Source: Streptomyces lonarensis (GTDB lineage: Bacteria; Actinomycetota; Actinomycetes; Streptomycetales; Streptomycetaceae). From it: 41,699 bases of DNA. Within the stretch, counting starts at the first letter, position 1, and every line of letters starts with the position of its first letter. Of this stretch, positions 3,984 through 29,145 are shown one piece after another. The stretch is from contig NZ_JAAVJD010000020.1 in assembly GCF_012033735.1 (NCBI RefSeq), forward strand, positions 1 through 41,699, written 5' to 3'. Under the pieces are notes generated by a model, which searched no databases, had not been told where the DNA came from, and was given only the letters and a program-made list of their open reading frames with translations. A program made the translations under genes and the position numbers.

Positions 3984-5888
3984 TCAGGCCCGGGCGGTGT
4001 CGAGGCTGCCGTCGAGTCGGGCGACGTGACCGGTGACCTCGCGGGCGATGTCGGGCGCGGTCAGCCCGATGGCGGCCATGACGTCCTTGCGGGAGCCGTG
4101 GTCGAGGAACTGCGGCGGGATGCCGAAGTCCCGCACCGGGACGTCGACCTCGGCGTCGCGCAGCGCCTGCGCCACGGTCGAGCCGACGCCGCCGACCCGG
4201 CTGTTGTCCTCCACGGTGACCACGAGGCGGTGGCGCGCGGCGAGGCCGGGCAGCTCCGGGTCGACGGGCTTGACCCAACGCGGGTCCACCACCGTGCAGG
4301 AGAGACCCTGCCGGCCGAGGAGCTCCGCGGTCTCCAGGCACATCGGCGCGAGGGCGCCCACGGACAGCAGCAGCACGTCGGGACGGTCGGTGCCCTCCTG
4401 CGGCGCCCGGAGCACGTCCATACCGCCGACGGTGCCCACGGACGGCACCGACGGGCCGACCGCGCCCTTGGAGTAACGCACCACGGTGGGAGCGTCCTTG
4501 ACATCGACGGCCTCGCGGAGCTGCAGCCGCAGCTGCTCGGCGTCGCGGGGAGCGGCGAGGCGGAGGCCGGGGACGCACTGCAGGATCGACATGTCCCACA
4601 TGCCGTGATGGGAAGCGCCGTCCGGGCCGGTGACCCCGGCGCGGTCCAGCACGAAGGTCACACCGAGCTTGTGCAGGGCCACGTCCATCAGCAGCTGGTC
4701 GAACGCGCGGTTGAGGAACGTCGCGTACACCGCGAAGACCGGATGCAGCCCGCCGGCGGCGAGACCGGCCGCGGAGACCGCGCCGTGCTGCTCGGCGATG
4801 CCCACGTCGAAGACCCGCTCGGGGAACTCGTCCGCGAACTCCTTGAGCCCCACCGGGCGGAGCATGGCGGCGGTGATGGCGACGACGTCGCGGCGCTCGC
4901 GGCCGATGCGGACGATCTCGTCGCCGAAGACGGAGGTCCAGTCGGCGCCGGCCGCGGCGACCGGGAGGCCGGTGTCGGGGTGGATCACGCCGACCGCGTG
5001 GAACTGGTCGGCCTCGTCCTCGCGGGCGGGGCGGTAGCCGCGGCCCTTCTCGGTGAGGCAGTGGACGATGACCGGGCCGCCGAACCGGCGGGCACGCTGG
5101 AGGGCGGACTCCAGCGCCTCGATGTCGTGGCCGTCGATCGGGCCGACGTACTTGAGGCCGAGGTCCTCGAACATGCCCTGCGGGGCGATGAAGTCCTTCA
5201 GCCCCTTCTTCGCCCCGTGCAGCGCGTCGTGCAGCGGCTTGCCGACGACCGGGGTCCGGTTGAGGACCTCCTTGCCGAGGGCGAGGAACTTCTCGTAGCC
5301 GTCGGTGGTGCGCAGCGTCGCCAGGTGGTTGGCGAGACCGCCGATCGTGGGCGAGTAGGAGCGCTCGTTGTCGTTGACGACGATGACCAGCGGCCGGTCC
5401 TTGGCGCCGGCGATGTTGTTCATCGCCTCCCAGGCCATGCCGCCCGTCAGCGCGCCGTCGCCTGTGACGGCGACGACGTGGTCGTCGCGGCCGTGCAGCT
5501 GGTTGGCCTTGGAGAGGCCGTCGGCCCAGCCCAGCACGGTGGAGGCGTGGCTGTTCTCGATGACGTCGTGCTCGGACTCGGCCTGCGAGGGGTAGCCGGA
5601 GAGGCCGCCCGCGGAACGCAGCCGGCTGAAGTCCTGGCGTCCGGTGAGGAGTTTGTGGACGTAGCTCTGGTGGCCGGTGTCCCACAGGATGCGGTCGGCC
5701 GGGGAGTCGAAGACACGGTGCAGCGCGATCGTCAGTTCGACGACACCGAGGTTGGGGCCCAGATGTCCGCCGGTCTTGGAGATCGAGTCGATCAGGAAGG
5801 TCCGGATCTCCTCGGCCAGGGTCACCAGCTCCTCCTGGCTGAGCTGGTCAAGATCGCGCGGTCCCGTGATGCGGGTCAGCAGCGCCAC
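3984..5888 (-). CDS. dxs: 1-deoxy-D-xylulose-5-phosphate synthase
   Basis: 634 residues, normal for DXS, starting at GTG with AGGAGG just upstream. DXS condenses pyruvate and glyceraldehyde 3-phosphate to 1-deoxy-D-xylulose 5-phosphate with thiamine diphosphate and Mg2+. This is the entry step of the MEP isoprenoid pathway and also supplies thiamine and pyridoxal synthesis. Visible features are [14 protein letters not shown] near residue 40, [15 protein letters not shown] near residue 70, and the ThDP/Mg motif starting GDGALTGGM (143-151) and closing with Asn157-Asn158. [13 protein letters not shown] and the transketolase pyrimidine-binding region GIAEQHGAV follow. The C-terminal transketolase domain is complete. 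In my recollection S. coelicolor has a dxs paralogue (SCO6013) in the same position relative to xylFGH. Confidence 0.97.
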
Positions 5889-19557: not shown

Positions 19558-20367
19558 GTGAATCGGGAGCACACAGCTGCACAGGAAGCCAGTTTCCGCT
19601 TCTCGATCATCGGAGGCCTGGATCTACGCATTGACGGCGCACGCCCGGAAACACCGACGGGGAAACAGCACACGCTCCTGGCCTCGCTTCTGCTGCACCC
19701 CGACCGCGTGCTGTCGACGGACGAGCTCATCGACTACCTCTGGGAGGACTCCCTCCCGCAACACCCCGCTGCCGCCCTCCATACCGTCGTGACCCGAGTA
19801 CGACGAGCGCTGTGCGGCGAAGCACGCTCCCGCGACGTCATCCGCCGCCGCGGGAGCGGATACGGGCTGGCGTCCTCGGACTGCTATGTGGACCTGGTCG
19901 AGTTCCGCTCGCTGGTCCGCCGTGCCGACACCGCCCGGCGCGAGGGAAACCACGGCAAGGAGTCACAACTGCTCGGTGCCGCCCTCGCCCTGTGGTCATG
20001 GCCCGCCCTTCCGGACGTCGGGTCCCGGACCCTGCGCCGCGCCGTCCTGCCGGGGCTCACCGAGGAATGGTTGGCGTCCGCCGAGCGGCGGGCCGAGGTC
20101 GACCTCGCGCTCGGACGTCCGCAGAGACTGATACCGGAGCTCACCACTCTGGCGACGGCCTTTCCCTACCACGAAGGGCTCTGGCGGGCGCGCATACTCG
20201 CCCTGCACCACTCCGGACGGGACGCCGAGGCACTCCGCGTCTTCTCGGAGTTCCGCGACCGTGCACGCGCCGAACTCGGCGCCGAGCCCGGCTGCCTCCT
20301 GAAAGCCGCGCACCTCGCCGTTCTCCGCGGCGGTACCGGCCGCCCCGGGACGACGAAAGCGCAGTGA
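19558..20367 (+). CDS. SARP-family activator of the lasso peptide cluster
   Basis: 269 residues. The GTG start has ACGGAGG 7 bases upstream. The N-terminal OmpR/PhoB-type winged HTH (about 10-100) reads FSIIGGLDLRIDG ... LLASLLLHPDRVLSTDELID ... HTVVTRVRRALCGE ... IRRRGSGYGL. It is followed by a bacterial transcriptional activation (BTAD) domain (about 105-255) with AELGAEPG, the classic SARP ending. The size equals small SARPs such as ActII-ORF4 and RedD; there are no NB-ARC or TPR additions. It is the first gene of the lasso cluster, same strand, 69 bases before the first precursor. Its 3' end overlaps phased repeats that look like its own binding site, so it probably activates the precursor promoter. 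Confidence 0.9.
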   Translation: MNREHTAAQEASFRFSIIGGLDLRIDGARPETPTGKQHTLLASLLLHPDRVLSTDELIDYLWEDSLPQHPAAALHTVVTRVRRALCGEARSRDVIRRRGSGYGLASSDCYVDLVEFRSLVRRADTARREGNHGKESQLLGAALALWSWPALPDVGSRTLRRAVLPGLTEEWLASAERRAEVDLALGRPQRLIPELTTLATAFPYHEGLWRARILALHHSGRDAEALRVFSEFRDRARAELGAEPGCLLKAAHLAVLRGGTGRPGTTKAQ

Positions 20368-20394
20368 AAGACCGGTGAAATGAGCTCCTACTAG
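20353..20394 (+). promoter_or_regulatory. Predicted SARP binding site and -10 box for the lasso operon
   Basis: Three heptamers are phased at exactly 11 bp: ACGAAAG (20353), GTGAAAG (20364) and GTGAAAT (20375). Seven bases after the last comes TACTAG (20389-20394), a good -10. SARPs bind heptamer repeats spaced one helical turn apart, about 8 bases upstream of -10. No separate -35 is evident, as expected for an activator-dependent promoter. Transcription would start near 20400, 35-40 bases before the precursor ATG. Confidence 0.65.
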
Positions 20395-20436
20395 CGTTGC
20401 TCGAGAACGCACACCACGGTCTTCCGAGGAGGAGAA

Positions 20437-20577
20437 ATGAAGGACACCACCGTCACGCCGTACGAGGCGCCGGCGCTGCTCGACGCCGGGGACTTCACCG
20501 AGGTCACCCTCGGCCGCAACAGCTGGGGCTTCGACAGCTCCATGCTCTGCCGCTGGATCAACTGCCAGCCCGCTTGA
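20437..20577 (+). CDS. Lasso peptide precursor 1 (LP2006-like class IV)
   Basis: 46 residues, with AGGAGGAG directly before the ATG. The leader is residues 1-25. It has the RRE recognition motif YxxPxLxxxGxF (Tyr9, Pro12, Leu14, Gly18, Phe20) and the conserved Thr at the penultimate leader position (Thr24). The predicted core begins at Gly26: GRNSWGFD, then SSMLCRWINCQPA (21 residues). Gly1 and Asp8 would form the 8-residue macrolactam ring. Cys13 and Cys18 of the core can form a disulfide in the tail. LP2006 of Nocardiopsis, the founding class IV lasso peptide, has the same GR-x-x-WGF ring start with Glu8 and Cys13-Cys17. Here the ring acid is Asp, the spacing is one residue longer, and three residues follow the last Cys. 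The cleavage site is predicted, not shown. Confidence 0.92.
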   Translation: MKDTTVTPYEAPALLDAGDFTEVTLGRNSWGFDSSMLCRWINCQPA

Positions 20578-20702
20578 TCTCGACCGCGGGATGACATGCG
20601 GCGAAAGAGCACGAGCGAGCCACCGGAGAATTCCGGCGGGAAGAGCTCGTCGACCGGCCATCCTTTCGTCCGGTGCCGAACGTCATTCCTGAGGGCGCCC
20701 CG

Positions 20703-20726
20703 GCGCACCTGCTTCCGGCAGGGCGC
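20703..20726 (+). other. Small hairpin between the two precursor genes
   Basis: GCGC + CCTGC pairs with GCAGG + GCGC around a TTCCG loop with one bulged A, within the 208-base gap between the precursor genes. It could be a processing, attenuation or stabilising structure in the precursor mRNA, or incidental. I see no convincing second promoter in the gap. Confidence 0.3.
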
Positions 20727-20785
20727 ATCCCCCGGGTCGCATCCGACACCGCGGTGAACCACCAGAACCCACGACCGGAGGAAAC

Positions 20786-20923
20786 ATGAAGAACACCACC
20801 ACCTCGCTCTACGAGGCGCCGGCGCTGCTCGACGCCGGGGACTTCACCAAGGTCACCCTCGGCCGGGTCAGCTGGGGCTTCGACAGCTCCATGCTCTGCC
20901 GCTGGCTCAACTGCCAGGTCTGA
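20786..20923 (+). CDS. Lasso peptide precursor 2 (variant copy)
   Basis: 45 residues, with GGAGGAAAC before the ATG. From Tyr9 onward it is nearly identical to precursor 1 at both DNA and protein level: same leader motif (Tyr9, Pro12, Leu14, Gly18, Phe20, Thr24), with Lys22 in place of Glu22. The predicted core is GRVSWGFD then SSMLCRWLNCQV (20 residues). It differs from core 1 at position 3 (Val for Asn), position 16 (Leu for Ile) and the tail after Cys18 (QV for QPA). Ring acceptor Asp8 and Cys13/Cys18 are kept. This is a tandem duplication with changes confined to one ring position and the tail. One set of maturation genes follows, so the cluster should make two related peptides. Confidence 0.92.
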   Translation: MKNTTTSLYEAPALLDAGDFTKVTLGRVSWGFDSSMLCRWLNCQV

Positions 20924-21004
20924 TCCGGGCTACGGGGCGCGTCGGACCGGCTCCCGCCGCCGGCGCGCCCCGGCGCCGCAGCCGCCCCGAGGAGAAGATG
21001 AGCG

Positions 21005-22831
21005 ATGCGATTCGTCGTACGGCCCGACTGCATGCTGCCCAGCGCATGGGCCGCGTTGCCGCGTGGCCCCCGGACCATTGACCACCCTTCCGGACGCCCC
21101 TTCGTCGACGGGGAGTGGGAGGACCACGAAGTCGCCACCGCAACCGCCCGCGGCGTCCGGGTCGTCCTTCTCGGCGCGTTCGACACGGACGGCGACGCGC
21201 TCGCCGAGCACTGCGTGCGGCTGAGTCGTGGCGGTGGCGTCGAGGCACTGGCCTCGGCCGTGCCGGGCGCTTACCACCTGCTGATCTCCGCCGGCGGACG
21301 CGTCCGCCTCCAGGGGACGCTGTCGTCTCGCTACCAGCCGGTTCACCGGAGTCTGGACCGCGTCACCGTGGCCGCGGACAATCCGGCGGCTCTCGCCACG
21401 GGGAACTCCCTGTCACAGGTCTCACCGGAGAGGCTGGCGGTACGGCTCGTGGCTCCGCTGCCGCCGTGGCCCCTCGGTGAGAAACCGGTGTGGGACGACG
21501 TGAACGCCCTGCCCGCCGGCCACCACCTGGAACTCGACCGCGACGGCCAGGCCCGCACGAGGCGCCACTGGAACGCGCCGGACGCCGCCGCACCCATGGC
21601 CGAGGCGGCCCCGGAGATCGCGCGTGCCCTGCGCGCCGCGGTGCGGGCCCGCCTGCGCGCCCACCCCACCATCGGCGCCGACCTGTCCGGGGGGCTCGAC
21701 TCGACGAGTCTGTGCTTCCTCATGGCGGCCGAGGAGCCGGACAGCCTCCCCACCCACAGGGGCAGCGCCCGCAGCATGCTGACGTTCCGCTGGGAGGTGG
21801 CGGACCCGAACAACGACGACCGGCAGTGGGCGGAGTTCGCGACCACCCGCCTGCCGGACGCAACGCACATCGTGGAAGGCGGCAGCTCCGCACCGGCGTG
21901 GTTCGGCCGGATGGCCGAGCCCTACGACGACCTGGAAGCACCGCAGGCCTGGATACGCACCCGCGCCCAGGACGAGCACAAGGCGCGGCTGCTGGCGGGA
22001 CGCGGCGTGACCGCGCACCTGTCGGGCGACGGTGGGGACGAGCTGTTCCACGCGACTCCCACGCATCTGCACGCGCTGATGCGCACGAACCCGCTGCTCG
22101 CGCTCTCGCACGCACGCCGCTACCGCGCGCTGTACCGGTGGGGGCGTCGCGCCACGTTGGCCGGTCTGGTCCGCTCCCGCAGTTTCCGGGACGCCCTCCT
22201 CTCGACCGCGGACACCCTGCACGCCCCGATCGGGGTCGCGGGCGGCAGACCGGACTTCGGCTGGGGCGCCGAGACCCGACTACCGGGATGGGCGAGCGAC
22301 GACGCGGCCGCCGCCGTCGGGGATGCCGTGCACGACCTGGCCGACACGACTCCGCTCTCGGGATCGGCGCCGCAACACCTGCTGCTGGCGGACGCCCGGA
22401 CAGCAGGCGAGGTGACACGGCAACGGTCACGGCTGTCGGAGCAGATGGGGCTTTCCTTGCACGCCCCCTTCCTCGACGACCACGTCATCGAGGCCGCCCT
22501 CGCCGTCCGTCTGGCCGACGCGGTGCCCGTCGACCGGTACAAGCCCGGGCTCACCGAGGCGATGCGCGGCATCGTGCCGGCGCGGCTGCTCGAACGCCGG
22601 ACCAAGCACGAGTTCAGCGCCGACGCCTACGCGGGGCTGCGCCAGAACCGGGGAACGCTCCTCGGTCTGTGCGAGGACATGCGGCTGGAGAAGCTCGGCC
22701 TCGTGGACGCCGCGGCTTTCCGCGCAGCCCTCACCGCCCCCCACCTCAACGCTTTCAGCATCATCCCGCTGATTCCGACCCTGGCCTGCGAGAACTGGCT
22801 TCGGTCCCTGCCCGACGGAGGACAGCGATGA
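21005..22831 (+). CDS. Lasso cyclase (asparagine-synthetase-like, C protein)
   Basis: 608 residues. The ATG at 21005 follows GAGGAG by about 10 bases; an ATG at 20998 is out of frame. It has the asparagine synthetase B architecture. The N-terminal glutaminase-like domain (about 1-210) lacks the catalytic Cys2 (it begins MRFVV), as in lasso cyclases that do not use glutamine. The C-terminal ATP-pyrophosphatase domain has PP-loop SGGLDSTS (228-235) and SGDGGDELF. Lasso cyclases adenylate the ring Asp/Glu side chain and couple it to the core N-terminus, closing the macrolactam around the threaded tail. The C-terminal part EQMGLSLHAPFLDDHVIEAAL is conserved in the family. Its stop overlaps the RRE gene start (ATGA). 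Confidence 0.95.
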   Translation: MRFVVRPDCMLPSAWAALPRGPRTIDHPSGRPFVDGEWEDHEVATATARGVRVVLLGAFDTDGDALAEHCVRLSRGGGVEALASAVPGAYHLLISAGGRVRLQGTLSSRYQPVHRSLDRVTVAADNPAALATGNSLSQVSPERLAVRLVAPLPPWPLGEKPVWDDVNALPAGHHLELDRDGQARTRRHWNAPDAAAPMAEAAPEIARALRAAVRARLRAHPTIGADLSGGLDSTSLCFLMAAEEPDSLPTHRGSARSMLTFRWEVADPNNDDRQWAEFATTRLPDATHIVEGGSSAPAWFGRMAEPYDDLEAPQAWIRTRAQDEHKARLLAGRGVTAHLSGDGGDELFHATPTHLHALMRTNPLLALSHARRYRALYRWGRRATLAGLVRSRSFRDALLSTADTLHAPIGVAGGRPDFGWGAETRLPGWASDDAAAAVGDAVHDLADTTPLSGSAPQHLLLADARTAGEVTRQRSRLSEQMGLSLHAPFLDDHVIEAALAVRLADAVPVDRYKPGLTEAMRGIVPARLLERRTKHEFSADAYAGLRQNRGTLLGLCEDMRLEKLGLVDAAAFRAALTAPHLNAFSIIPLIPTLACENWLRSLPDGGQR

Positions 22832-23100
22832 CCTACAGACTTGCCGACGGAGTGACCGTGGCCGAGACGGACGGGGGCACCGTCATCCTCGACCTCAGGA
22901 CCGGCGCGTACCGGCTGCTCAACGAGAGCGGTGCCGCCGTCCTGCGGCACCTCACCGAGCACGGTGCACAGGGCGACGCGCCGGCCCGTGCGATAGCCGA
23001 GCTCAGCGCACGCCACCCGGAGGCGGCCGACGCCATACCCGGCGATGTCCACCTCGTGGTGCGGGCGCTGCTGGAGGCGAAGGTCGTGGAGCGGTCATGA
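22828..23100 (+). CDS. PqqD-like RiPP recognition element (lasso B1/E protein)
   Basis: 90 residues, a stand-alone RRE of the PqqD fold. VTVAETDGGTVILDLRTGAY forms the beta-hairpins, RLLNESGAAVLRHLTEHG the first helix, and VHLVVRALLEAKVVE the last helix. It binds the YxxPxL leader motif and hands the precursor to the protease and cyclase. The ATG overlaps the cyclase stop (ATGA) and its own stop overlaps the protease start (ATGA), so the three are translationally coupled and presumably made in equal amounts. The split arrangement (separate RRE and protease) is the usual one in actinobacterial lasso clusters. Confidence 0.93.
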   Translation: MTYRLADGVTVAETDGGTVILDLRTGAYRLLNESGAAVLRHLTEHGAQGDAPARAIAELSARHPEAADAIPGDVHLVVRALLEAKVVERS

Positions 23101-23513
23101 GCCTTCCCGTGACGTTGGAGCCCCGAGCCGCGCGAGACGCCGTCCCGCGGACCCGCAGGTTCGCCGCCCGTGCTGCGGTCGCAGCCGCCTTCCAGCTGCG
23201 CCGCTGTCGGCCGCAGCGCCTGCGTGGGCTCTTGGAGCTGGTGAGCCGGGGCGCACGGCCGGCCACCTCGGCCGAGGCCATGGAAGCTCGCGAAGCGGTG
23301 GTCGCGGTCAGCGTCCACTGCGCCGGGCAGGGGTGCCTGGAGAGGTCGATCGCCACGTTCCTGCTGTGCCGGCTCTCCGGTCGCGTGCCGGAGTGGCGCA
23401 CCGGTGTGCGGCTGGAGCCGTTCCGTGCCCACGCGTGGGTGGCGGTCGGTGGTGTCCCCGTCGGAGAGCACGAGGAAGTCGCCACCTACGCAGTGACGAT
23501 GGGGGTCCGGTGA
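23097..23513 (+). CDS. Lasso leader peptidase (transglutaminase-like, B2/B protein)
   Basis: 138 residues, the size of stand-alone B2 proteases. Transglutaminase-like Cys protease motifs are present: GCLERSIATFLLCRL with the nucleophile Cys80, and PFRAHAWVAVGGVPVG with His112. The acidic third residue normally lies 12 residues after the His (Asp in McjB-like enzymes). Here that position is Glu124, a conservative change. The enzyme removes the leader after Leu25, exposing Gly1 for cyclisation. Its start overlaps the RRE stop (ATGA), and its own stop overlaps the GTG of the transporter fusion (GTGA). Confidence 0.92.
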   Translation: MSLPVTLEPRAARDAVPRTRRFAARAAVAAAFQLRRCRPQRLRGLLELVSRGARPATSAEAMEAREAVVAVSVHCAGQGCLERSIATFLLCRLSGRVPEWRTGVRLEPFRAHAWVAVGGVPVGEHEEVATYAVTMGVR

Positions 23514-25993
23514 GCGGCGCCTGGTGGTCGGCCGCCGGACAGACGCTGGTCGTGGTCGTCTTCGTCATGTCCGCGCTCGGCAAGTTCCGGAGCAGGGCTC
23601 GGTTCCGCTCCTTCACCACCTCGGTGGAGCAGCTGCCGTTCGTGCGAAGCCGACGGGTCGCCACGACTCTCGCAGCCCTGGTTCTCCCGTCCGAGGTCGC
23701 GGTTGTCGCCGCCGTGCTGATCCCGGGGACGACCCGCTTCGGGCTGGCACTGGCCGTCGGCCTGCTGCTGTTGTTCTGCGCCGTCTCGCTGAGCGTCATG
23801 CGTTCGGGGCTTCTGGTGGACTGCCGGTGCTTCGGCCGGCGCGCGGTGATGGGAGGAGCGACCGTGGTCCGGAACCTCCTCATGGCCGGCATGGCCGCGG
23901 TGGGTGCCCTCGGAGCCGGAGGAACGCTCACGGACGTGACCGGCTGGGCGGACCGTCCGGCGTGGACGGCAACCGCGGCCGCCACGGGAGTGGCGCTCGC
24001 ACTGGTACTCACCCAGCTCTGGGACGTGGTGGTGGGCGGCCACGTGCAGCGCTCGCTGCTGCGCGCCCAACGGGCGGAACCGAGGAGCGCCGCGCACGCG
24101 GTCGAAGGCGCCGCGGCGGCGGAGCAGCCGGGCCCGGCAGGAGGCCCCGCAGCCGAGGCCGGGGCCGGCGCCGAGGCCGGGAAGCTGACGGCCGACGAGC
24201 ATGACAGCCGCGGCGGGGAGCGCGTCTCGCCCGGCGCCGGCCACGTGGGCATCGGTGCTCTCTTTCCCTATCTGCGTCCCCACCTGAAGGTGCTCGGCGC
24301 GGTCTCGGCGCTCTCGGTGGCGACCGCGGCGGGCCTGCTCGCCCAGCCGATGCTGATCCGGTCGGTCCTGGACGGCCTGCACGCCGGGGCTGCGGTCGGC
24401 GGGCTGCTGCTCGCCCTGGTGCTCCTGCTGCTGATGTCGGGAGCCGCCTCCGCGGTGCGGGACTACCTCCTGCACCGGACCGGCGAGGGCGTGGTGCTGT
24501 CCGTACGGAAGCAGTTGGCCGCACGGATGCTGCGGCTGCCGATGCCCGAGTACGACCGCCGACGCACCGGGGATCTGCTGGCCCGGTTGAGCAGCGACTC
24601 GACTCTGCTTCGTTCGGTGGTGACCGGCGGCCTCATGGAACTGCTGAGCGGGGTCGTCGTCCTGGTGGGCGCCGTCGCCCTGATGCTGCTGCTGGACCCG
24701 CTGCTCTTCGCGGTCACCGTACTGGGCCTGGCGGGCGCGGTCGGCGCGGTGGCAGTCGCGCAGCGCATCCAGGGCGCCTCCACCGCAGCCCAGGAAAAGC
24801 TGGGCGAGATGACCTCCGCCACCGAGCGTGCCATCTCCGGCATCCGGACGGTGCGGGCGGCCAGGGCCGAGGAGCGGGAGACACGGGAGATCAACCGCTG
24901 TGCGCACGGCGCCTACCGCGCGGGCTTGCGGATCGCTCGGCTGCGGGCGTTGGTCGGGCCGCTGATGACCTCTGCCGTCCAGGTCGCCTCACTCGTCGTG
25001 CTCGGCGTCGGCGGCAGCCGCGTCGCCGCAGGCGCCATGAGCGTCGGGGACCTGGTCGCGTTCGTGGCGCTGCTGTTCATGATGATGATGCCGATCCTGC
25101 AGGCCGTCGGCGCCTACGCGGATCTGCAGACCGGGCTCGGAGCGCTGCGGCGCATCGAGGAGGTGCTCTCGTTGGCGGAGGAGACGGCCGGCGACCGCCG
25201 GAGCGGGCCGGTGCCCGTCGCCGCCGCGCGAGCTGCGCCGGCCGGACAGCCGGTCGGACAGCCGGCCGCTGTCGAGTTCGACGGGGTGACCTTCGGATAT
25301 GACGCAGCCGATCCGGTGCTGCGCGAGGTGGCCTTCCGGGTGCCCCCGGGGTCGCGCTGCGCCCTGGTGGGGCCGTCGGGCGGCGGTAAGTCCACGACGC
25401 TGGCGCTGATCGAACGGTTCTACGACGTCGACCGGGGTGCTGTGCGGGTGGACGGGGTGGATGTGCGCGACCTCTCCCGGGCGGATCTTCGGGGCCGGAT
25501 CGGCTACGTCGAACAGGACGCTCCCGTGCTGGCCGGGAGCATACGCGAGAACCTGCTGATCGCGACCCCGGAGGCTGATGACGCAGACCTCATGGCCGCG
25601 CTGCGCGCGGCTCAACTGACGGAGCTGGTCGAACGCTCACCGGCCGGTCTGGACGCCCCCGTGGGCGAATCCGGGGTGCTCCTGTCCGGGGGGCAGCGCC
25701 AGCGCCTCGCCCTGGCCCGCACGCTGCTGACCGGCGCCCCGATCCTGCTGTTGGACGAGCCGACGAGCAATCTGGACGCCCGCAGCGAGCACGCGCTGCG
25801 CCGAGCGCTCGACGCCGTCGCCGAGCACCGCACGCTCCTGATCGTGGCGCACCGGTTGGCGACCGTCGTCGATGCCGATCAGATCGTCGTGTTCGACAAC
25901 GGCAAGGTCGTGGCAGCGGGCGGACACGACGAACTGACGCGGAGCAGCTCCCTGTACCACGAGCTGGCCGCGCATCAGCTGCTCGTCCGGTAG
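23510..25993 (+). CDS. MauE/DoxX-like redox domain fused to a lasso peptide ABC exporter
   Basis: 827 residues from the GTG at 23510, which overlaps the protease stop. Residues 1-185 form a membrane domain of four or five helices (TLVVVVFVMSALGKF; TLAALVLPSEVAVVAAVLI; FGLALAVGLLLLFCAVSL) with the Cys-x-Cys motif DCRCFG (Cys105, Cys107). This resembles MauE/DoxX-type proteins involved in disulfide formation. An Ala/Gly/Glu linker (about 186-247) leads to a full ABC half-exporter: six-helix domain from about 248, Walker A GPSGGGKST (621-629), signature LSGGQRQ (725-731), Walker B ILLLDEP (745-751) and H-loop His781. It should export the mature peptide as a homodimer. I infer that the redox domain makes the Cys13-Cys18 disulfide at the membrane. 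The frame is continuous, so this is a genuine fusion unless sequencing joined two genes. Confidence 0.9.
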   Translation: MSGAWWSAAGQTLVVVVFVMSALGKFRSRARFRSFTTSVEQLPFVRSRRVATTLAALVLPSEVAVVAAVLIPGTTRFGLALAVGLLLLFCAVSLSVMRSGLLVDCRCFGRRAVMGGATVVRNLLMAGMAAVGALGAGGTLTDVTGWADRPAWTATAAATGVALALVLTQLWDVVVGGHVQRSLLRAQRAEPRSAAHAVEGAAAAEQPGPAGGPAAEAGAGAEAGKLTADEHDSRGGERVSPGAGHVGIGALFPYLRPHLKVLGAVSALSVATAAGLLAQPMLIRSVLDGLHAGAAVGGLLLALVLLLLMSGAASAVRDYLLHRTGEGVVLSVRKQLAARMLRLPMPEYDRRRTGDLLARLSSDSTLLRSVVTGGLMELLSGVVVLVGAVALMLLLDPLLFAVTVLGLAGAVGAVAVAQRIQGASTAAQEKLGEMTSATERAISGIRTVRAARAEERETREINRCAHGAYRAGLRIARLRALVGPLMTSAVQVASLVVLGVGGSRVAAGAMSVGDLVAFVALLFMMMMPILQAVGAYADLQTGLGALRRIEEVLSLAEETAGDRRSGPVPVAAARAAPAGQPVGQPAAVEFDGVTFGYDAADPVLREVAFRVPPGSRCALVGPSGGGKSTTLALIERFYDVDRGAVRVDGVDVRDLSRADLRGRIGYVEQDAPVLAGSIRENLLIATPEADDADLMAALRAAQLTELVERSPAGLDAPVGESGVLLSGGQRQRLALARTLLTGAPILLLDEPTSNLDARSEHALRRALDAVAEHRTLLIVAHRLATVVDADQIVVFDNGKVVAAGGHDELTRSSSLYHELAAHQLLVR

Positions 25994-27587: not shown

Positions 27588-27605
27588 ATCTCATATCTGA
27601 GATAT
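27588..27605 (+). promoter_or_regulatory. Nested palindromes immediately upstream of HTH-murA
   Basis: ATCTCA-TATC-TGAGAT (27588-27603) is a perfect inverted repeat. Overlapping it, ATATCT-G-AGATAT (27593-27605) is a perfect 13-base palindrome. They end 11-13 bases before the ATG at 27616, where a bound protein would block initiation. The XRE-type HTH at the start of the downstream protein makes autoregulation the simplest idea. Confidence 0.6.
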
Positions 27606-27615
27606 GGTCGATCGC

Positions 27616-29145
27616 ATGAGCGATGACTACCTCTCCCGCATCGGCAAGCTCATCCGCGACGCCCGGCAGCACCGGGGCTGGACACAGCTGCAGCTGGCGG
27701 AGGCGCTGAACACCAGTCAGAGCGCCGTCAACCGCATCGAACGCGGTAACCAGAACATCAGCCTTGAGATGATCGCCCGTATCGGTGAAGCCCTCGACTC
27801 CGAGATCGTGTCCCTCGGTTACTCGGGCCCGATGCACCTCCGGGTCGTCGGCGGTCGCCGCCTCAGCGGCTCGATCGACGTCAAGCCCTCCAAGAACGCC
27901 TGCGTCGCGCTGCTCTGCGCCTCCCTGCTCAACTCCGGCCGGACCGTGCTGCGTCGCGTGGCCCGCATCGAGGAGGTCTTCCGACTGCTGGAGGTCCTCG
28001 GCTCCATCGGCGTCCGGGTGCGGTGGATCAACGACGGCGACGACCTGGAGATCGTGCCGCCGGCAGAGCTCGCGCTCGACGACATCGACGCCGAGGCCGC
28101 CCGGCGCACCCGCTCCATCATCATGTTCCTCGGTCCGCTGCTGCACCGTGTCGACCAGTTCAAGCTGCCCTACGCCGGCGGCTGCGACCTCGGAACCCGC
28201 ACGGTCGAGCCGCACATGACCGCGCTGCGCCGCTTCGGCCTGGAGATCGCCGCCACCGACGGCACCTACCACGCCCAGGTCGACCGCTCCGTCACCCCCG
28301 AACGGCCCATCGTGCTGACCGAGCGCGGCGACACCGTGACGGAGAACGCCCTGCTCGCCGCCGCGCGCCACCCCGGCGTCACCGTCATCCGCAACGCCTC
28401 GTCCAACTACATGGTCCAGGACCTCTGCTTCTTTCTGGAGATGCTCGGTGTACAGGTGGAGGGCGTCGGCACCACCACGCTCACCGTCCACGGGCTCGCG
28501 GAGATCGACCGCGACGTCGACTACTCCCCCTCCGAGGACCCGGTCGAGGCCATGAGCCTCATCGCCGCCGCGGTCGTCACCTCCTCGGCGCTGACGATCC
28601 GCCGGGCGCCGGTGGAGTTCCTGGAGGTCGAACTCGCCGTACTGGAGGGGATGGGGCTCGACTACGACCTCACCCCCGAGTACGCCGCCGACAACGGCCG
28701 CACCCGACTGGCCGACGTCACCGTCCGGCCCTCCAAGCTGGAGGCGCCGATCGACAAGATCCACCCGATGCCGTTCCCCGGCCTGAACATCGACAACGTG
28801 CCGTTCTTCGCGGCCATCGCGGCATCGGCGCACGGTCAGACCCTCATCCACGACTGGGTCTACGACAACCGCGCCATCTACCTCACCGACCTCAACCGGA
28901 TCGGCGGCCGCCTCCAGCTGCTGGACCCGCACCGCGTGCTGGTCGAGGGCCCCACCCGCTGGCGCGCCGCCGAGATGATGTGCCCGCCCGCGCTGCGGCC
29001 GGCCGTCGTCATCCTGCTGGCGATGATGGCCGCCGAGGGCACCTCGGTACTGCGCAACGTCTACGTCATCAACCGCGGCTACCAGGACCTCGCGGAACGC
29101 CTCAACTCGGTCGGCGCACAGATCGAGATCTTCCGCGACATCTGA
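27616..29145 (+). CDS. murA: XRE-type HTH fused to UDP-GlcNAc 1-carboxyvinyltransferase (MurA-like)
   Basis: 509 residues. The ATG at 27616 (MSDDYLSRIGKLIRD) matches the start I recall for Streptomyces homologues; an ATG at 27604 adds four residues and abuts the palindrome. Residues 8-62 are a Cro/CI HTH (WTQLQLAEALNTSQSAVNRIERGNQ). The rest is an EPSP-synthase-type MurA fold. The active-site Lys-Asn is present (KPSKNA, Lys93/Asn94), as is the catalytic Cys190 (YAGGCDLGTRTVEPH, equivalent to Cys115 of E. coli) and the Asp of GLNIDNVPFF (equivalent to Asp305). MurA adds enolpyruvate to UDP-GlcNAc, the first step of peptidoglycan synthesis. Homologues (SCO5998 in S. coelicolor, from memory) coexist with a housekeeping murA, so this may be a regulated or regulatory paralogue. 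Confidence 0.9.
   Translation: MSDDYLSRIGKLIRDARQHRGWTQLQLAEALNTSQSAVNRIERGNQNISLEMIARIGEALDSEIVSLGYSGPMHLRVVGGRRLSGSIDVKPSKNACVALLCASLLNSGRTVLRRVARIEEVFRLLEVLGSIGVRVRWINDGDDLEIVPPAELALDDIDAEAARRTRSIIMFLGPLLHRVDQFKLPYAGGCDLGTRTVEPHMTALRRFGLEIAATDGTYHAQVDRSVTPERPIVLTERGDTVTENALLAAARHPGVTVIRNASSNYMVQDLCFFLEMLGVQVEGVGTTTLTVHGLAEIDRDVDYSPSEDPVEAMSLIAAAVVTSSALTIRRAPVEFLEVELAVLEGMGLDYDLTPEYAADNGRTRLADVTVRPSKLEAPIDKIHPMPFPGLNIDNVPFFAAIAASAHGQTLIHDWVYDNRAIYLTDLNRIGGRLQLLDPHRVLVEGPTRWRAAEMMCPPALRPAVVILLAMMAAEGTSVLRNVYVINRGYQDLAERLNSVGAQIEIFRDI

Follow-up and report, generated by a model that had tools for sequence, protein, structure and literature searches.

A predicted LP2006-like class IV lasso peptide cluster with a MauE-exporter fusion in Streptomyces lonarensis

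Genes and precursors at the locus

The window analysed here is the whole 41.7-kb stretch at positions 1 to 41,699 of contig NZ_JAAVJD010000020.1 of Streptomyces lonarensis. Its + strand carries, in this order, a SARP regulator, two lasso precursors, a cyclase, a PqqD-like recognition element (RRE) for ribosomally synthesized and post-translationally modified peptides (RiPPs), a B2 protease and a fusion of a MauE domain with an ABC exporter. From its sequence this is very probably a Streptomyces LP2006-like class IV lasso peptide cluster with two paralogous precursors. The points worth following are that class IV clusters contain a MauE gene and that MauE is here fused with the exporter, while the novelty of the core differences from LP2006 is modest. 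The following features were assigned:

19558..20367, +, SARP-family transcriptional activator, probable pathway activator (Pfam BTAD 1.2e-30, Trans_reg_C 4.2e-10)
20437..20577, +, lasso precursor A1, core GRNSWGFDSSMLCRWINCQPA, core codons 20512-20574 (NF033521 31.7 bits, cut-off 19; aligns with relatives)
20786..20923, +, lasso precursor A2, core GRVSWGFDSSMLCRWLNCQV, core codons 20861-20920 (NF033521 29.6 bits, cut-off 19)
21005..22831, +, lasso cyclase, asparagine-synthetase type (PF00733 5.2e-42; NF033561 5.3e-68, under its cut-off)
22828..23100, +, PqqD-like RRE, B1 (PF05402 4.7e-07, over cut-off; NF033530 63.3 bits, cut-off 70)
23097..23513, +, B2 leader protease (NF033537 5e-31, over cut-off; PF13471 1e-24)
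23510..25993, +, MauE-ABC exporter fusion, 827 aa, GTG start (PF07291 at residues 8-134, PF00664 at 267-528, PF00005 at 604-753, all over cut-off)
23531..23911, +, MauE domain (PF07291 75.6 bits, cut-off 27, 5.5e-21)
23819..23836, +, DCRCFG motif within the MauE domain (C105, C107, F108 and G109 invariant across a 19-row alignment)
24308..25093, +, ABC exporter membrane domain (PF00664 3.9e-43)
25319..25768, +, ABC ATPase domain (PF00005 2.4e-29)

A leader-bearing precursor, cyclase, RRE and B2 protease, the combination that defines a lasso cluster, lie together here (NF033521, PF00733, PF05402, NF033537). An earlier, sequence-only reading of the window had described the maturation genes (cyclase, RRE, protease, exporter) as present and overlapping, and 4-base overlaps were indeed found at the C/B1, B1/B2 and B2/exporter junctions. 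That reading did not mention the MauE half of the 23510-25993 protein or the SARP regulator at 19558-20367, a match to which was present in 11 of 15 relatives (8-kb stretches around their loci). No flavin oxidoreductase gene was found anywhere in the 41.7-kb window.

Lasso precursors have Thr at position -2, Gly1 at the start of the core and Asp or Glu at ring position 7-9. The cleavage-site contexts TL/GRNSWGFD and TL/GRVSWGFD agree with this rule, and YEAPALLDAGDF is present in both leaders with Thr at -2. A1 and A2 (82% identical) both exceed the cut-off of the NCBIfam model lasso_leader_L3 (NF033521). Gly1, Asp8, Cys13 and Cys18 occur in both cores as had been claimed, with three residues beyond the last Cys in one core and two in the other; each core has exactly two Cys, at 13 and 18, both in the tail past the ring, as in class IV. 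Together the gene families, the lasso_leader_L3 matches and a precursor alignment with LP2006 bear out the predicted LP2006-like class IV assignment. The LP2006 core given in the earlier reading (GRPNWGFENDWSCVRVC, C13-C17, class IV) matches the tabulated entry in PMC12427821 and the Nocardiopsis alba DNA (L034).

Both cores are identical at the protein level in Streptomyces bohaiensis (cluster DNA identity 96.7%) and Streptomyces spiramenti (82-85%), which rules out a core unique to the source strain, and since both are retained unchanged the precursors are not chance reading frames. In the comparison with S. spiramenti, amino-acid and silent changes number 0 and 4 in the cores and 10 and 6 in the leaders (Fisher p = 0.087), which is no more than suggestive of selection on the cores. 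No published report of either core was found in a full-text literature search with five core fragments, whose two hits were unrelated papers judging from their titles, and a full-text search found no paper joining "lasso" with "Streptomyces bohaiensis".

Elsewhere in the window, 27604-29145 (+) encodes a 513-aa protein that combines an N-terminal helix-turn-helix with a MurA/EPSP-synthase-like domain. The source genome also has another lasso B2 locus (L064, contig C10; B2 match at 4948-5277, -), where the precursor scan identified no precursor.

LP2006-type relatives and their cores

Relatives were sought with the DNA pattern T.GR..WGF[DE]....C across a named genome collection. It was matched by 17 loci, 15 of them actinobacterial lasso loci: seven from Actinomadura, three from Streptomyces (S. 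bohaiensis, S. spiramenti, S. iconiensis) and five single loci from Nocardiopsis alba (LP2006), Allonocardiopsis, Kineosporia, Kribbella and a Thermomonosporaceae metagenome-assembled genome. L039 and L041, where tblastn gave no cluster gene, were taken as chance pattern matches. In an alignment of 14 precursors including LP2006 the residues Y, P, G, F, TLGR, WGF, C and C were invariant, part of them being already contained in the pattern by which the rows were found. A profile of 14 precursors, used for a wider genome search, gave hits of the LP2006 type in 4 of the 394 genomes from the class and, within one other family, in 13 of 297; of these 13, four are apparently loci already in the set, judging from contig coordinates, one is L090 and eight are new. 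LP2006-type clusters are rare but recurrent by this search, and the statement that class IV lasso peptides are very few holds for characterised products.

The core census listed 28 LP2006-type cores, 25 of them distinct: 12 Asp8/C13-C18, eight Glu8/C13-C17, three Glu8/C13-C18 and two Asp8/C13-C17. Asp8 (14/25) and Cys13-Cys18 (15/25) are the commoner forms among the collected cores, and the Asp8/C13-C18 pattern of the window cores recurs in other loci of this type. The ring acceptor, the cysteine spacing and the extended tail had been put forward as novel differences from LP2006; the first two are common, singly and together, and residues past the last Cys are known in felipeptin A1 and pandonodin (PMC12427821). 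Ring acceptor and cysteine spacing covary (p = 0.005), the 25 cores being related rows from which no claim is drawn. The class IV family is broader than its few described products, with Cys13-Cys18 as the commoner spacing in the collected set.

Three relatives show further precursor arrangements. S. iconiensis (L046 2654-2761, 2952-3050), whose genome has seven B2 matches, has a class IV precursor followed by a cysteine-free one (GYPGFSYDYAWVHKGPPSGISA) ahead of the same cyclase. The LP2006-type precursor at L188 12906-13025 (-) would give a core starting with Lys (KQGTWGYDSRDQCLIAC) if cleaved after Thr-Leu. Actinomadura kijaniata (L048 4714-4812, 5075-5119, 5368-5412) encodes two precursors of class IV, and tblastn gives a third match in tandem with them.

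MauE across lasso clusters

The stretch after B2 could be compared in 24 LP2006-type loci (L049-L063, L065, L090, L185-L190, L192), of which 15 came from the DNA pattern, seven from the precursor profile and two (L065, L090) from a draw by B2 score. Left out were L191, which ends before the stretch past B2, and the window itself, which is near-identical to L056. MauE was the next gene after B2 in 22 of the 24. The distance from the B2 match was at most ~100 bases in all but L186, which has ~650 bases of repetitive sequence in between. LP2006's own cluster (N. alba, L051) is among the 22 and encodes its MauE protein (198 aa, PF07291 4.1e-18) between B2 and the ABC ATPase. A. kijaniata (L063) has its B2 and MauE genes on another contig than the precursors, with which they are linked by inference. 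A methyltransferase-like gene directly follows the exporter permease in LP2006's cluster (L051 7675-8340, +).

MauE is missing from two loci, L065 and that of S. iconiensis (L062); in both, the gene between B2 and the exporter encodes a luciferase-like flavin oxidoreductase, and the two proteins (PF00296 in L062) are 50% identical. Each of the 24 loci has MauE, a flavin gene or both. A strict alternation between the two was refuted by ten clusters with MauE (L049, L053-L055, L057-L061 and A. kijaniata, L048) that also have a flavin gene of the same profile, upstream of the precursor and facing away. Weak matches to the flavin profile were also seen in L188 (5e-9) and L187 (2e-12), and the profile is not exclusive to class IV, matching L135 (5e-60), L096 (4e-13) and L144 (2e-9) in the draw by B2 score.

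In the window the 827-aa transporter protein consists of the MauE domain (residues 8-134, above the curated PF07291 cut-off), a linker and an MsbA-type ABC exporter. The motif [DE]CxCFG was present in all 25 further MauE domains examined as well as in that of the window, for which structure prediction gave a bundle of helices (pLDDT 86, pTM 0.81). Mean Lys + Arg was high in loop 1 (3.9), the C-x-C loop (2.6) and the C-terminus (3.1), with 0 and 0.6 in the other two loops (19 rows), and because of this distribution the C-x-C loop and the C-terminus of MauE probably face the cytoplasm; a cytoplasmic C-terminus is consistent with fusion to the N-terminus of the exporter. A search of 199 Streptomyces genomes with the MauE portion of the protein (E <= 1e-8, at most 14 candidates scored per genome) placed MauE in a transporter-length frame in only two, the source genome and G134 (apparently S. 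bohaiensis), with frames of 998 and 990 codons and a next longest of 632. The fusion was also present in S. spiramenti (L052), and L056, the locus near-identical to the window, shows it as well; in plasmid records no place covered 80% of it. L186 was rejected as another fusion, its long MauE frame crossing low-complexity sequence and its ABC genes being separate.

As a control, 120 B2 loci were drawn by B2 score alone (the best 60 of a class-wide search and the best 60 further loci of a Streptomyces search) and scored with a local MauE profile at E <= 1e-5. MauE was present in four, all with cysteine-pair cores (three siamycin-type class I, one class IV). Where precursors were identified (81 loci), MauE accompanied 4 of the 11 loci with cores of at least two Cys and none of the 70 whose cores have one Cys or no Cys (Fisher p = 0.0002, or 0.002 when rows sharing their last 16 residues are merged). 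Since MauE matches occur about once per 1.9 Mb (74 in 16 genome rows, two of them apparently the same genome), chance adjacency is estimated at about 1 in 100 per locus.

In a quick tree built from 114 cyclases, class IV, class I and eight other rows fell into one group (support 98), in which the 24 class IV rows need one change (branch support 11). None of the eight other rows has MauE; three of them have adjacent CC, and one, the cysteine-free L158, is sister to the class I siamycin type at 99. Because these eight lack it, MauE tracks the cysteine pair better than it tracks the descent of the cyclases, although the events are few.

Proposed role of MauE and likeness to known systems

From the gene families, B1 would bind the leader and B2 would cut after Thr-Leu, the cyclase would join Gly1 to Asp8 around the threaded tail, and Cys13 and Cys18 of that tail would form one disulfide. 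The peptide would exit through the MsbA-type half of the 23510-25993 protein. The MauE half, a membrane domain of about five predicted helices, would be an accessory for cysteine-pair lasso peptides, with its C-x-C probably cytoplasmic and close to the peptide's entry into the exporter; its most likely role would be to oxidise the tail dithiol, or to hold the proper redox state, as the peptide is exported. In other class IV clusters MauE is a protein of its own, a luciferase-like flavin oxidoreductase is present, or both. Through the fusion MauE is tied to export, and it may represent a membrane thiol/redox step coupled to that export.

With the redox step read loosely, this explanation as a whole (a class IV cluster in which MauE would serve cysteine-pair peptides at export) is on balance the one we favour. 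That MauE is dedicated to the cysteine pair in some way is likely. Its direct participation in disulfide formation, for which the support is motif conservation and gene association, is possible without being probable. More tentative still, and on balance unlikely, is the wider proposal that class IV, like class I, carries a dedicated MauE-type membrane redox protein rather than relying on plain air oxidation, with the fusion coupling disulfide formation and secretion here and the flavin oxidoreductase taking or sharing the role in some class IV clusters. The place of MauE after B2 in 22 of 24 clusters and its fusion to the exporter offer a simple test, with one protein and two changeable cysteines.

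Several points weigh against an oxidative accessory. In structural comparison the MauE model comes closest to an assembly factor, NACHO/TMEM35A, and not to an oxidase (Z 10.8, 122 aligned, root mean square deviation 2.9), a Z below the level of ~13 advised by the tool for helical bundles; GGCX follows at Z ~6, and Foldseek gave no match to the model at E <= 0.001, a VKOR chain appearing only at E 1.5. Precursors went unidentified in 39 of the 120 drawn loci, which are without MauE too, and of the four drawn loci that have MauE, three are siamycin types nearly identical to one another. Seven drawn loci with at least two Cys lack MauE: L065 is class IV with a flavin gene, L072, L108 and L128 have one Cys in the ring region, and L131, L132 and L139 have adjacent CC. 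Class I and class IV cyclases share one clade, so part of the association between MauE and cysteines may be shared ancestry. PMC9266682 reports that sviceucin was still formed without sviF, though found only in the mycelium, that MS-271 was still detected at lower yield without mslE (sviE/DoxX-type) or mslF, with no thiol intermediates, and that arcumycin (class I) has neither gene. As we analyse them, the class I deletions argue against an essential role of a MauE-type protein and fit an export role at least as well. The three adjacent-CC loci are Streptomyces loci with paired precursors whose cysteines lie in the ring region (GCCGRWLDN, TCCGRWIDN).

These points give weight to the strongest alternative, a spontaneous disulfide with MauE as an export or immunity helper of the class I/class IV branch and the fusion only keeping MauE near the transporter. 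The deletions as told in PMC9266682, the assembly-factor fold and the single cyclase clade are all consistent with it. However, MauE accompanies the cysteine pair within that clade, being absent from all eight rows outside class I and IV including the cysteine-free L158, an objection tempered by the three of those rows that do have adjacent CC, and the C-x-C motif is invariant. We consider this alternative a serious one that nonetheless falls short of even probability. Very improbable is an ordinary lasso cluster to which the class IV label does not apply, its tail cysteines staying unjoined as free thiols or in intermolecular bonds: all 28 listed LP2006-type cores retain Cys13 together with a further Cys at position 17 or 18, and LP2006 with that pair is classed as IV (PMC12427821).

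The route by which the disulfides of lasso peptides arise has been called unknown (PMC13352647), and a 2022 review (PMC9266682) considers the class IV disulfide conceivably non-enzymatic. The same source describes the clusters of LP2006, pandonodin and the felipeptins as without extra genes beyond A-D, yet gives the felipeptins FilE, a flavin-dependent oxidoreductase; the MauE gene of N. alba does not fit that statement for LP2006. DoxX-type proteins are already listed as disulfide oxidoreductases in class I, namely AboE and HumE (PMC6409603, PMC7168211), and according to PMC7794033 three candidate Streptomyces RiPP families have homologues of mauE; that paper also mentions the speculation that MauE serves the disulfides of methylamine dehydrogenase. 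No report linking MauE with class IV lasso clusters was found in the literature searched, the primary LP2006 and felipeptin papers (PMC5391289, PMC7689547) being outside its reach.

The closest known system is LP2006 of N. alba, which shares the leader type, Gly1-Arg2, Trp5-Gly6-Phe7, an acidic residue 8, Cys13 and the gene order A-C-B1-B2-MauE-ABC. It differs in Glu8, the Cys13-Cys17 pair, a core ending at the last Cys, the one precursor seen, a separate 198-aa MauE protein and a two-gene ABC-2 type exporter. The class IV felipeptins A1/A2 share the tail Cys pair, two products and, in A1, W-G-F with the window (PMC12427821), and differ in Glu8, Cys13-Cys17 and the presence of FilE in the cluster (PMC9266682, PMC12427821). 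The class I clusters of sviceucin, aborycin, humidimycin and MS-271 share a DoxX/MauE-type membrane protein, as given in the literature. In the class I locus L168 this copy matches both PF07291 (1.1e-24) and DoxX (2.2e-06), and its gene stands separately after the exporter genes, followed by a DsbA/thioredoxin-type gene with a CPEC motif. Class I cores have four Cys, compared with two in the window cores.

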